The position numbers and the translations under genes are program-made. From Kalmusia sp. IMI 367209 (lineage: Eukaryota; Ascomycota; Dothideomycetes; Pleosporales; Didymosphaeriaceae), in NCBI GenBank assembly GCA_027946365.1, contig JAPEUQ010000024.1:310001-374000 (forward strand): DNA of 64,000 nucleotides, written 5' to 3'. Below are positions 35,018-39,775 of this stretch, one piece after another (the first letter of the stretch is position 1; every line of letters starts with the position of its first letter). The notes under the pieces were generated by a model that was not told the DNA's origin, made no database searches, and worked only from the letters and a program-made list of their open reading frames with translations.

Positions 35018-36907
35018 ATGATGGCACCTTCACGGAACACCGTGCTTGCTCTGCTAAGCCTTGTCGCTAGGTAAGCCACCCTGGCATCTAGTCAGTTTAA
35101 CGCCTATATTTACATTGGTAGCATTCGAGCACTTCCTGCTGCTCTGCCCGAGCCTGAGGCTCAAATCGGCCTTCCGCACACATATTCAATAAGTTGGGAT
35201 GCTCCGCAACCTGTTACTACCGATGACCCCGAAGAGCCACAATCCCCTGCCCCAACGCCCAGCGACCAGATCTCCCTCGGTAAACCTTCAGCTACCATCA
35301 GCTGGGACGGCAGCCCAGTTCCCACAGATGATCCCGAACCCGAAGATCCAGGGTACCCAGACGATCCAGAAGAACCGGGGCTTTCTCAGCCATCTCCAAC
35401 CAATATTATCAGCCTTAATCCACCCAGCTTCTCCGTCTCTTGGGATGGACCTCAGCCACCAAAGACTACGAAGAAGCCATGGCCACCACGACCTACGAAG
35501 AAGACTTCAACGAAGGGTTATGTGAGTGCAACAGTCAGCTGGAATCAAGCCCAGGGAAATGCACCTTCACAACCAACGAACATCATTAGCCTTAATCCTC
35601 CCAGTTACTCGATCTCTTGGGACGGACCTAAGCCACCTAAAACTACGAAGAAGCCGCAACCACCAAAACCTACGAAGAAGACTTCAACGAAGGGTCACGT
35701 GAGTGCTACGATCAGCTGGGGCAAGAGACAATTGATCCCATCTTATTCAATCTCTTGGGACGGTCCTCAACCCCCGCAACCCACCAAGAATCCATGGCCA
35801 TGGTGGCCACCAAGGCCATCGCCATCAGCGTACACTTCGACAAACGGCTATGTGAGCGCTTCTGTTAGCTGGGGCAAGAGGCAGGAAGATGAGGACCCAG
35901 AGCCCACCGAGTTCCCTGGCTTTCCTGAGGACCCCGACTTCCCTGAAGATCCCGAAGAGCCAGGAGGTCCCATCAGCTTTCCCTCCTTTCCTGTACCTAC
36001 GCCTCCGAACAGCATTGGAATCCAACCCCCATCTGTATCCTTCAGCTGGGGCAAGAGACAGGAAGATGAGCCTGAGCCGACTGACTTCCCCGAGCCCGAG
36101 GATCCAGAAGACCCAGCAGACCCAATTGGCTCACCTGTTGGCCCTCAACCTACACCCCCGAACTCCATCGGCATACAGCCCCCTCACGTCTCGTTCAGCT
36201 GGGGCAAGCGTGAAGAAGCTGCTGCTGCTACTCCTCCACCATCGATCGGTTTAGACAAGCCGACGAATTCAATCAAGTGGCCGCAGCCCCCTAAGAGTAC
36301 AAGCAAAGCGTGGATCTCATGGGGTAAGCGACAAGATGACGGCGATCCCACAGAAGTCTTCCCTCCCGCTCCGACACACAGCGACCAGATCACTTTCGTC
36401 CCACCAACTGCGTCTATCTCTTGGGGCAAGCGTGATGCCGAAGCTCAGGCACCAACCTACGGTCTAGGTTTTCCAACCTTCTCCTTTAACTTCCCCGGTC
36501 TACCTAGATCCTCTGCGTATATCAGCTGGGGCAAGCGCGATGATGACGCACCAGAACACCACACAACTTTCCTGACACACAAGACTCGTCCCACAGCCAC
36601 CACCATCTACACACCAACGCCTGTTTCTAGCTCATGTCCTACCGTAACGAAGACAATTGTGCCACCGTGTGTTCCACCAGTGTGCCCGCACGATCTTGTC
36701 AGCTGTAAGGTAGGAGAGGCGAAGGAGCTGGAGGAGGTAAAGGAAAGGCAGATTGAGAAGACGTTTGTTACGATTACGACGGTGGCGAAGCCGACCTGGA
36801 AGCCAACACCGACTAGCGAGGTGTGCTCAGCTGTAACGAAGACCTTGTATTTGGGATGTCCGACCTACACTTGTGTACCGGGAACGGAGTGCGGGCTGAG
36901 GGCATAG
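35018..36907 (+). CDS. Secreted Kex2-type repeat peptide precursor with WGKR sites
   Basis: No named family is recognised. Exons 35018-35070 and 35122-36907 encode 612 aa (a second Met follows at codon 2). Signal peptide: NTVLALLSLVASIRA. The body is rich in Pro, Thr, Asp and Glu and holds 13 copies of a core S/T/W/Y/F-x-S-W. The first six lack processing residues (SISWDAPQ, TISWDGSP, SVSWDGPQ, TVSWNQAQ and similar), or nearly so. Seven end in W-G-K-R, with Trp at residues 217, 268, 327, 378, 418, 452 and 487. Lys-Arg is the Kex2 cleavage signal, and the following QEDE, EEAA, DAEA and DDDA resemble the trimming spacers of yeast alpha-factor. A Gly before Lys-Arg is the amidation signal in animal neuropeptides. 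The last 100 residues carry eight Cys. It fits the class of fungal Kex2-processed repeat proteins. No cyclising DUF3328 enzyme is nearby. Confidence 0.85.
35390..35719 (+). repeat. 177-bp in-frame tandem duplication inside the repeat precursor
   Basis: The stretch ending at the Trp codon at 35540 is repeated with an exact offset of 177 bp (59 codons), ending at the Trp codon at 35717. Both copies encode NIISLNPPS, SWDGP, PPKTTKKP and KKTSTKG. The first ends SWNQAQ; the second ends SWGKRQ. A shorter diverged third copy ends at 35870. Confidence 0.85.
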
Positions 36908-37407: not shown

Positions 37408-39313
37408 TTATGTGGCTTCGCTCTTTGGGGTAGTCCCGCGTCGCTCAAGCTTCTTGGGCTTTTTCTTGGGCTTGGGGGGCTCTTCAGGCTTCGCATCGTC
37501 CTGTTTAGGTGCCTTCTCGGTAGGTTTCGCAATTTCTACCTTCCCTTGCTGTTCTGATGATTTTTCACGCTTTGCGCCTGCCTTCTTTGGCTCTTCTTCA
37601 GGCAGCGCCGACTCAGGCGGATCATCATCCTCATCCGCTTTCTTCGCAGATTTCTTCACCGCAGCAGGCTTCTGCGGTCCACCTCTCAGCCCCGGCATAC
37701 CCGTAGCCTTCTTATTTTCGCCGCCATCCTTCTTCGTAATCAGTTTCTTCGGCGTACTTTTCCGATTCTTGAGCGAAGATGTCGACGCAGATAGATCCTC
37801 CCCGGCTTCCTCAACCATGAAGTTGGCAGCCATGCACCTCCCCCCATTCTGCGGACCAATCTCATTCGGACAAGAGCTCAGTACGACAACCATGTCACGC
37901 TCAGCTCTGAATCTCACATAGCTCCGTTTTTTACTCTTTGGCTCTTCGACTTTCAGCGTCACGCCTTTAGCACCTGTACCTTCGGTTTGCGCACCCGTGT
38001 CGAGTTGCAGATGAGCGTTCATGAAAAGGTGCAGCGGTGTGGGTGCGATGTTGACTGTGATGTCTGCACCGACGGCTTTAGTCCCTTTAAGGCCGGCTTT
38101 CTCGTTTAGCTCGCGAAGAGCGAGGACGAGATTCTCGGCGCAGCTACCGTGCTCAGCGGGCTTGTCGGCGCCGAGGGCTGCGTACATGTTTGCGTCGCAG
38201 GCTGCGGTCAACGTATCGTGTGCACCTGTTGATGTGTCTTCTACGAGTGTCATAAGGGGGTTGCGGAGGTTAGTGAGGAGGGTATCGTTTATTTCAGGAA
38301 CGAGATGGTTCGTAGCGGCGCGGGTGTGGGGTAAGGAGAGATACTCCATGGGAGGCTGGTCGTTTTTGTAAGGATTTATTTTCGTGTAAGCATTATAGGC
38401 AGCATAGAGGGAGGAGGCTGTGCCAGAGCCGCTGGCCGCTGTAGCACCAAAGTCAGATAATCATTCTTAACGATTGATCAATAACCATTGATGACATACC
38501 AGCTAGAGTACCTGCACCCACAGGTGTCTTTGAGAAGTCGTACAGCTGCTCTGCGTAGCTTTTATTCGGATCCCAACTATTACTAGACTTGAATGCGCTC
38601 ACTACTCCTTGCGTATTCGGCATCTGTATATTTGGTACGTAGCTGGAAAACCCTTTGCCAGTTGGTAGGTATGAAGACCATTTCTTCGACTCTGCCTCGT
38701 TCTGTTCCTTCTCCGTTGTCTTGTCTGCCTTAGCTTGAGCATTCGACTTGTTTTGAGCCTGGTTTTGATTTTTAGAACGGTAAGGAATGGCAGGGAGGTA
38801 AGAGGACCACGTTCGCTTCCCCGGTTTCGCGCTGGTGGATGTTTCGTCTGTAGATACGTTGGGGGCTTGCTCGGGAGGATCTTCTGCATCATCCATTACT
38901 TTTTCATGCTCTTTCATTTTCTCCGCTTTCGTATCAGCCATACCCGTATTCTCAGCCTTCTCAGGATCTTTCTTGTCCCCATCTGCTTTCGATGCCTCCT
39001 CTTCCTCATTGCGCTCCTCCTCCTTGCTACCGCCATTGTCCCCAATATTGTCTTTCGCATCAACGCTAGCATCTGCCTGCGTACCTTCCTCTTTCCCCTT
39101 CTCCAACTCCTCCTTCAACTCATCCACCTTCTCTTCCATCATATCACACTCTTCCTCCTCGTTCTCCCCCTCTTCTGGCGGCGAACTTAATCCAAAAGCC
39201 CACGTACTAACAACCTGCTTTCCATACGTGTTTATGATCTTGATCGTCCTCCCCCTCGGCACAAAAGTCGCTACACCATGCCGTGCAGGAATCGTTTGTA
39301 ATTCACCCGACAT
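37408..39313 (-). CDS. DUF1989 (urea carboxylase-associated-like) protein
   Basis: Exons 39313-38500 and 38438-37408 give 614 aa. The DUF1989 fold is split by a long insert. The first part is QTIPARHGVATFVPRGRTIK and INTYGKQVVSTWAF. Then come about 170 residues of Glu/Lys-rich and Ser/Tyr-rich sequence with SSYLP repeated. The second part is YLSLPHTRAATNHLVPEIND, EDTSTGAHDTLTAACD, HGSCAENLVLAL and PLHLFMN. The His, Cys and Asp residues in HDTL..ACD and HGSC probably bind metal. A Lys/Pro-rich tail follows. The family is associated with urea and amide metabolism in bacteria; the role of the large fungal form is unknown. The frame stays open upstream of 39313, but no ATG occurs there, so the start at MSGELQTIPARHG is preferred. 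Confidence 0.8.
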
Positions 39314-39775
39314 ATCTTGCGCCGCGAAGTCGTCCTCTCCCGATTGCTGTGCTTTTGCTTTACGTTGTTTCTCGACAGCGGAAAGCACAGTGACGAGGGC
39401 TAGAGAGGCGACAGCGCGGCGGTTAGGCAGTTTGAACTTTGAGGCCGCCGTTTTGCCGATATTCGATTGTGGTAACGTGCAGCTGAATATGCGATACGTA
39501 GGAAGGGGTATCAGAAGTGATTAGTGCAAGGATACAATGCGTGAAATAGGTTGTCGCAGTGTTGTGCAGTCTACGCTGGAAAGAACATTTGACGATCGAT
39601 TTCCAGGCTTTGTTAACCGTAGATGACGTAGTGTCATCGCGGCACGGCAGACACGTTCTGGCCAACCGTTACACGGCGAGAATGCATGGAAGGCTTGCCT
39701 AGTGATGCGAACGATCGTCATAATTGTAGTGTAGTGCTAGCGTCATAATACAGGATGATCTCTTCCCTGATTCGA

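Follow-up and report, generated by a model that had tools for sequence, protein, structure and literature searches.

The 64,000-nucleotide stretch analysed here (hereafter the window) is part of contig JAPEUQ010000024.1 (contig C17 of genome G000) of the fungus Kalmusia sp. IMI 367209. At positions 35018-36907 of its plus strand lies a gene, interrupted by a single 51-base intron, that encodes a candidate peptide precursor of 612 amino acids carrying seven Trp-Gly-Lys-Arg (WGKR) sequences. Its features, in window positions as for all site coordinates below, are the following.

35018..35070, plus strand: exon 1, which holds two Met codons and the greater part of the secretion signal (judged by eye), beginning MMAPSRNTVLALLSLVA
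35071..35121, plus strand: intron, GTAAGC...TTGGTAG (GT...AG), 51 bases, the removal of which leaves an uninterrupted frame of 612 amino acids
35122..36907, plus strand: exon 2, the remainder of the precursor, stop codon included
35132..35722, plus strand: N-terminal piece, residues 22-218 (197 amino acids), with six SW copies and KK-containing linkers
35714..35728, plus strand: predicted cleavage site 1, S-W-G-K-R, W217
35867..35881, plus strand: predicted cleavage site 2, S-W-G-K-R, W268
36044..36058, plus strand: predicted cleavage site 3, S-W-G-K-R, W327, core NSIGIQPPSVSFSW
36197..36211, plus strand: predicted cleavage site 4, S-W-G-K-R, W378, core NSIGIQPPHVSFSW
36317..36331, plus strand: predicted cleavage site 5, S-W-G-K-R, W418
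36419..36433, plus strand: predicted cleavage site 6, S-W-G-K-R, W452, core DQITFVPPTASISW, with a Ste13-type D-A-E-A immediately downstream
36524..36538, plus strand: predicted cleavage site 7, S-W-G-K-R, W487
36539..36907, plus strand: C-terminal piece, residues 491-612 and the stop codon, with all eight Cys of the protein and no Pfam match

The spliced frame was 100% identical to the hypothetical protein N0V90_013484 of Kalmusia sp. IMI 367209 (record P0001, 611 amino acids), the annotated start of which is the second Met of the window frame. Read by eye, the N-terminus is hydrophobic both in this long precursor and in a compact paralog described below, and the mature protein was assumed to begin after residue 21. 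The seven WGKR ends listed by the initial annotation are all real and are the sole KR or RR pairs in the protein. They divide it into eight fragments, of 197 residues (N-terminal), then 49, 57, 49, 38, 32, and 33, and finally 122 residues (C-terminal); in place of the short SW peptides that had been expected, the pieces between the sites are thus 32-57 residues long and accompanied by two larger ones. The residues following sites 1-7 are QLIP, QEDE, QEDE, EEAA, QDDG, DAEA, and DDDA, and two of the six intervening peptides have a strongly acidic front half (net charge -13 and -11, with 0, -2, -4, and -2 in the others). Counted outside the published pipeline with its 15% length filter, the eight fragments compare with the four or more KR- or RR-bounded fragments asked of Kex2-processed repeat proteins (KEPs), and xSWG stands at the end of seven of the eight, with the fuller core in part of them, where at least three fragments with a similar motif are called for.

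No family was matched in a Pfam scan of the query frame, and a scan of 25 relatives returned one weak match only, in a single member and to a disordered PT repeat. AlphaFold2 predicted the 611-residue precursor to be mostly disordered (mean predicted local distance difference test score, pLDDT, of 45.2, with 460 of 611 residues below 50). Ten-residue blocks averaging above 70 were confined to the Cys-rich tail, where block means reached 77-88 in residues 531-550 and 591-610 of P0001, and low-confidence strands were predicted at the cores that precede sites 3 and 4.

Aligned on Trp, the repeat copies outline a core some 14 residues long, approximately [DN]xIx[LI]xxP[ST]xx[IV]xW, the end of which alternates Ser or Thr with hydrophobic residues up to the Trp. 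Full cores precede, for example, sites 3 and 6 (NSIGIQPPSVSFSW and DQITFVPPTASISW), and other copies are incomplete, such as KTSTKGHVSATISW, which retains the last part only. The initial annotation had counted 13 S-x-S-W-type cores; 13 xSW motifs are indeed present, but only eight are strict SxSW (three are TxSW, and two have W or Y in the first position), and the repeat unit is longer than that motif. Neither the SW nor the W.KR count was reached when residues were shuffled 20,000 times: SW occurred 2.1 times on average and at most eight times in shuffled residues 22-612, against the 13 observed, and W.KR never occurred more than twice in the shuffled query against the seven observed. Arg is encoded at sites 1-7 by AGA, AGG, AGA, CGT, CGA, CGT, and CGC (five kinds of codon) and Ser by AGC at five sites and by TCA and TCT at the others; since these codons differ among the seven copies, the amino acids of the motif have been kept despite divergence of the DNA. 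A whole-genome search with the short WGKR DNA pattern (92 forward and 86 reverse matches versus 62 and 77 in a reversed control) was uninformative.

The initial annotation had recommended a homologue search for the repeated motif, and protein searches recovered at least 25 long proteins, P0001 among them, plus a compact family; these searches scored only about 8,000 candidates sharing the most words, so that family sizes are lower bounds. Named long-family members come from Kalmusia, Karstenula, Didymosphaeria, Paraphaeosphaeria (including Paraphaeosphaeria minitans), Paraconiothyrium, Bimuria, Melanomma, Neocucurbitaria, Byssothecium, Periconia, Lophiotrema, and Delitschia, all genera of the Pleosporales. 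The 25 long proteins contain 209 [KR]R pairs; W-x stands immediately before 171 of them, where shuffling expects 0.97, and for 182 of them a Trp lies no more than four residues upstream. Mean column identity over the 11 closest sequences was 0.994 for Lys-Arg, the best conserved of the classes compared, 0.971 for Trp, 0.858 for the 13 preceding residues of the core, 0.838 for Gly, 0.821 for the C-terminal tail, and 0.818 for the rest, which is the reverse of the pattern, named beforehand as speaking against processing, in which the KR pairs vary while the rest of the protein is conserved. P0001 was included in the 171 of 209 and in the column identities and excluded from the ladder and profile counts given below. 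The pair was kept at sites 1-7 in 13, 24, 20, 23, 24, 21, and 19 of the 25 sequences, with alignment gaps accounting for 12, 1, 4, 1, 1, 0, and 6 of the sequences in which it was not. A Cys-rich C-terminal tail (36539-36907 in the window gene) is also common to the long relatives.

In 24 relatives, at least two consecutive X-Ala dipeptides directly follow 15 of 175 sites, and against a background of 0.64% of 11,786 positions such post-site ladders are about 13-fold enriched; six of the 15 represent one orthologous site in close relatives and are not independent, and the others occur in P0007, P0012 (three), P0013, P0018, P0021, and P0025 (two). Longer X-Ala or X-Pro ladders follow dibasic sites in P0012, P0013, P0015, and P0025, reaching five consecutive X-Ala pairs in P0025, and these four proteins are more alpha-factor-like than the window gene.

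We consider it likely, at a probability of roughly 80%, that the protein is a KEP from which linear peptides with a free Trp-Gly end would be released. The secreted Kex2-type repeat precursor proposed by the initial annotation is well supported at the level of sequence, since Lys-Arg is tied to Trp across the relatives, the Lys-Arg columns are the best conserved, and the Arg codons differ; the signal peptide is a reading by eye. We infer the steps of secretion, cleavage, and trimming as follows. The signal peptide would direct the precursor into the secretory pathway, where the Kex2 protease would cut after each of the seven Lys-Arg pairs, and a Kex1-type carboxypeptidase would then take off Lys-Arg to leave a ...Ser-Trp-Gly end with a free carboxyl group. 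X-Ala ladders are of the type that Ste13 removes from alpha-factor. A dipeptidyl peptidase of the Ste13 type could trim the ladder back to Gln at site 6, which is followed by DAEAQ, and at additional sites in some of the relatives. The products would be six linear peptides of 32-57 residues, each with a beta-patterned core and a Trp-Gly end and two with a strongly acidic front half, together with two larger pieces: an N-terminal one of 197 residues, which also ends in Trp-Gly, and a Cys-rich C-terminal one of 122 residues. As free acids, the six peptides have calculated monoisotopic masses of 5453.621, 6163.764, 5228.369, 4043.079, 3408.579, and 3550.683 Da; pyroglutamate formation would reduce the mass of those that begin with Gln by 17.03 Da, and a change of Trp-Gly into Trp-amide would reduce it by 58.01 Da. 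The Kalmusia genome contains one Kex2-type P-domain match, two full-length DPPIV_N matches, and 29 S10 carboxypeptidase matches, and these protease matches, the sites, and the predicted disorder are consistent with a peptide precursor, cleavage itself being a prediction.

A compact paralogous precursor with two exons, an apparent signal peptide, and nine Trp-ended cores is located at G000:C27:1315809-1316600 (L012:1483-2274), and only one gene of each type, long and compact, was found in the Kalmusia genome. The copies of the paralog are closely spaced (e.g., TPPTFELGPPSTEIGW) and followed by GKR, GKEKR, GKDKR, or SKR, the GK(E/D)KR spacing after several cores being unusual, and the last copy ends in ...TWGKH at the stop codon. 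The peptides bounded in this way are shorter and more uniform than those of the long form. Named compact-family relatives come from Alternaria, Bipolaris, Boeremia, Stemphylium, and Ascochyta, and one Alternaria relative was predicted to be wholly disordered (mean pLDDT 32.3). Counts for this family cover 27 proteins, some of them partial at the start; P0037, P0038, and P0055-P0057 were left out, of which P0037 and P0055 look like long-family pieces and P0038, P0056, and P0057 are partial or doubtful. The C-terminus is Trp-Ser in 14 of the 27, WGKE in seven, WG, WGK, WGKQ, and WGERD in one each, and another sequence in two, including P0034, whose end is doubtful. The 14 Trp-Ser-ended proteins have eight different last 12 residues, the named ones being from Alternaria and Bipolaris.

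Pairwise, the window gene and the paralog match weakly (best expectation value, E, 5.7e-4 one way and 8.3e-5 the other). Alignment of the long and compact profiles with hhalign gave a probability of 99.1, for which the E-value is to be read cautiously as both profiles are repetitive and Pro-rich, and the compact profile found the long-family protein P0011 at an E of 9.1e-6. A score matrix was derived from 98 compact cores selected for Pro at -6 and a hydrophobic residue at -2, with the Trp itself omitted, and its threshold was the 99th percentile of the non-Trp windows of the query alone. Among 24 long relatives, 96 of 172 Trp-before-KR contexts scored above this threshold versus 75 of 256 other Trp contexts. 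Judged by these comparisons of sequence, the core common to the long and compact families is real, and several of the query copies have drifted.

Several observations weigh against processing of the long precursor as proposed. Six of the 13 SW copies are uncut, having D or N as the next residue and no cleavage site; five of these precede site 1 and one lies later, the sixth SW copy being the one that carries the first WGKR. Trp contexts with a hydrophobic residue at -2 number 311 in 24 relatives, with a dibasic pair next in 172 and not in 139, so that the core is kept also where no cut is expected; it is seen in both groups, the -4 residue being mostly Ala if a dibasic pair follows and Tyr if not. 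On the query itself the compact-core matrix passed eight of 20 Trp contexts, among them four of the seven cleaved ones, and the copies within one long precursor seem more divergent than would be expected of a hormone. The counted sequences are moreover related to each other, so that the counts are not of independent events.

The initial annotation had likened the WGKR ends to those of animal neuropeptide precursors, in which Gly-Lys-Arg follows the peptide, and if the sequence were a true amidation signal here, the products would end in Trp-amide. Gly does precede Lys-Arg at all seven query sites and predominates in the long relatives, where it occupies 139 of the 171 positions between Trp and the pair, but its column identity in the 11 closest sequences lies near that of the rest of the protein and well apart from that of Lys-Arg. 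It is replaced at the remaining 32 of 171 long-family sites (N at 10, D at nine, A at four, Y at four, V at two, S at two, and H at one) and, in the compact family, S, D, N, E, or T takes its place at 27 of 87 sites; it is thus not obligatory in the fungal families. Furthermore, Trp-Ser are the very last residues before the stop codon in 14 of the 27 compact proteins, and amidation by the Gly route is therefore impossible there. The check for a peptidylglycine monooxygenase-like gene that had been suggested gave no PF03712 or PF01082 match in a scan of the Kalmusia genome, although the control genomes were equally silent, and the amidating enzyme is stated in passages of PMC6529398 to be missing throughout fungi. 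On the variable Gly, the Trp-Ser termini, and the lack of an enzyme match, amidation was rejected as highly improbable. An equally remote alternative is a dikaritin-type ribosomally synthesized and post-translationally modified peptide (RiPP), with cores cyclised by UstYa-type oxidases. The apparent signal peptide and the Kex2-bounded repeats do have the layout of the ustiloxin and phomopsin precursors, and the genome holds 102 UstYa (DUF3328) matches, several of which may fall in one gene; but EDY, part of the core reported for ustiloxins and phomopsins, is absent from the protein, no RiPP enzyme was found among the 19 neighbouring open reading frames (ORFs) scanned, and, among the matches listed, none lies on contig C17 and the nearest to the paralog is about 62 kb away. 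The lack of a UstYa match on contig C17, among the matches listed, led us to reject a dikaritin identity. A wall or matrix protein that stays whole, with its repeats and KR pairs unprocessed, would suit the uncut SW copies, the Pro/Glu-rich spacers, and the conserved Cys-rich tail, and we regard it as unlikely, given that most KR pairs (171 of 209) come after the Trp core, that no other column class compared is as well conserved, and that X-Ala ladders are enriched directly after these pairs.

Within the preferred reading of a processed precursor, the function of the peptides is a matter of more tentative choice. Ustilago maydis belongs to a different phylum from Kalmusia. Its protein Rep1, of 652 amino acids, gives rise to ten amphipathic peptides of 35-53 amino acids and one of 228, and these peptides form surface-active amyloid-like fibrils (PMC4617103). 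In the passages of that paper and of the others considered, Rep1 has the closest layout found in print, resembling the Kalmusia protein in total length, in the lengths of the released peptides, in one large piece, and in imperfect repeats, and differing in its larger number of small peptides (ten versus six), the comparison being one of layout and not of sequence. By analogy, the Kalmusia products may be surface or surface-active peptides that work like the Rep1 repellents, with beta-rich fibrils coating the hyphae, a proposal that we hold as the foremost single candidate though at somewhat less than even odds. It is consistent with the layout (612 amino acids, six peptides of 32-57, and pieces of 197 and 122), with the alternation of Ser/Thr and hydrophobic residues up to the Trp, and with the acidic front half of two of the six peptides. 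A structural role for the long protein is favoured because its copies vary while holding an amphipathic pattern and its uncut copies are retained. Set against it are the shorter and more uniform peptides of the compact paralog and the strands of the core, which are short and appear in low-confidence predictions; the latter, and the fact that the analogy is drawn from layout, count also against the function that we attach to the precursor.

A secreted signal, in the form of a pheromone or hormone system beside the alpha-pheromone with a receptor reading the Trp end, is possible but doubtful, and most of the remaining odds are divided between signalling and other ways of interacting with the surroundings. 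A signalling role is favoured because of the X-Ala ladders of the Ste13 type and the compact paralog, which resembles alpha-factor and has a last copy that ends at the point of processing; the conserved C-terminal Trp and the single gene of each type in the genome are in line with it, as is an STE2-type receptor gene (G000:C1:3183042-3183928, L019), although that gene is expected anyway for the ordinary pheromone. The strong differences among copies within a long-family protein, many of them uncut, argue against it. Ascomycete alpha-pheromone precursors share with the Kalmusia proteins the Kex2 sites, the X-Ala ladders in part of the copies, and, in the paralog, the end at the last copy; they differ in that the query has no PYG and no Cys in its released peptides, and in the length and variability of the long-form peptides. 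Dothideomycete pheromones have, in the text of PMC6339444 considered, the pattern PYG[LM]P[IV]G or a two-Cys core, and neither occurs in the precursor, which contains no PYG and has Cys only from residue 523 onward, in agreement with the earlier statement that the Cys-containing pheromone motif is absent. As the core is unlike either Dothideomycete type, an alpha-pheromone identity was rejected. The Pleosporales pheromone DNA pattern PYG.P.G had one match in the genome, in a different frame inside a long ORF that by eye resembles a sugar transporter, and this was taken as chance; the genome's own alpha-pheromone gene was not located by the pattern. It is also conceivable, if on balance doubtful, that the two paralogous Pleosporales precursors, long and compact, release peptides of the same core for a common target or for co-assembly at the hyphal surface, beside the alpha-pheromone.

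Among known systems, the precursor appears to represent a new family, itself undescribed, within the known class of KEPs. It resembles the KEPs in the passages of PMC6339444 and PMC7329392 considered in its apparent signal peptide, more than four KR-bounded fragments, and a motif before each site, and also in that its contig has no DUF3328 match among the matches listed; 78% of the KEPs in PMC7329392 are without a nearby DUF3328 gene. The text of PMC6339444 considered names new conserved motifs (DADAATXYV[A/V]D, YVW[G/A][G/S], SPPHKT, QKLKVD, and XSDW), none of which matches the Trp-ended core. The family may nonetheless sit unnamed among the 838 KEP types of PMC7329392, which were compared by their text and not by their logos. 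One type to which it may correspond is G-9, which has members in Bipolaris, Ascochyta, Alternaria, and Stemphylium and lacks a linked DUF3328 gene (PMC7329392). Mass spectrometry has revealed basidiomycete KEP peptides that end in Trp (AADW); many KEP peptides of these fungi start with pyroglutamate at an N-terminal Gln, Ste13 motifs are present, and deleting six KEP genes in Coprinopsis cinerea had no apparent effect on phenotype under the conditions of that study (PMC9769878). The Trp-ended peptides and Ste13 motifs are thus shared with the Kalmusia family, whereas the core is another one and the peptides quoted in the passages considered end at Trp itself. Searches of the literature with core motif strings returned no paper on a fungal precursor, as judged from titles and the openings of abstracts. 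The initial annotation's view that no fungal type uses this core therefore fits the literature searched, but the class to which the precursor is assigned is a known one, and Trp-ended peptides occur, in the sources considered, among basidiomycete KEPs.

The neighbourhood of the gene looks ordinary in the 19 neighbouring ORFs scanned, out of 64 of at least 160 amino acids listed in the window, the gene's own frame being among the 64. Matches were to exportin-T, a C2H2 zinc finger, patatin, a TsaD homologue, DUF1989, and GH43, several ORFs being without a match, and no peptide-modifying enzyme was found among the neighbouring ORFs scanned. At 37408-39520, two adjacent minus-strand ORFs both match DUF1989 and are probably one spliced gene. 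Elsewhere in the genome, the abundance of UstYa (DUF3328) matches, counted exon by exon and so representing fewer genes, suggests many dikaritin-type or related clusters.

KEPs are widespread, and few have a known product. The family described here combines an unusually strict cleavage signature with one core placed in two precursor layouts, and it illustrates that Gly-Lys-Arg need not be an amidation signal when it occurs in a fungal precursor. Paraphaeosphaeria minitans, a fungus used against other fungi, has a member of the long family, through which exact product masses and a deletion phenotype would be testable.

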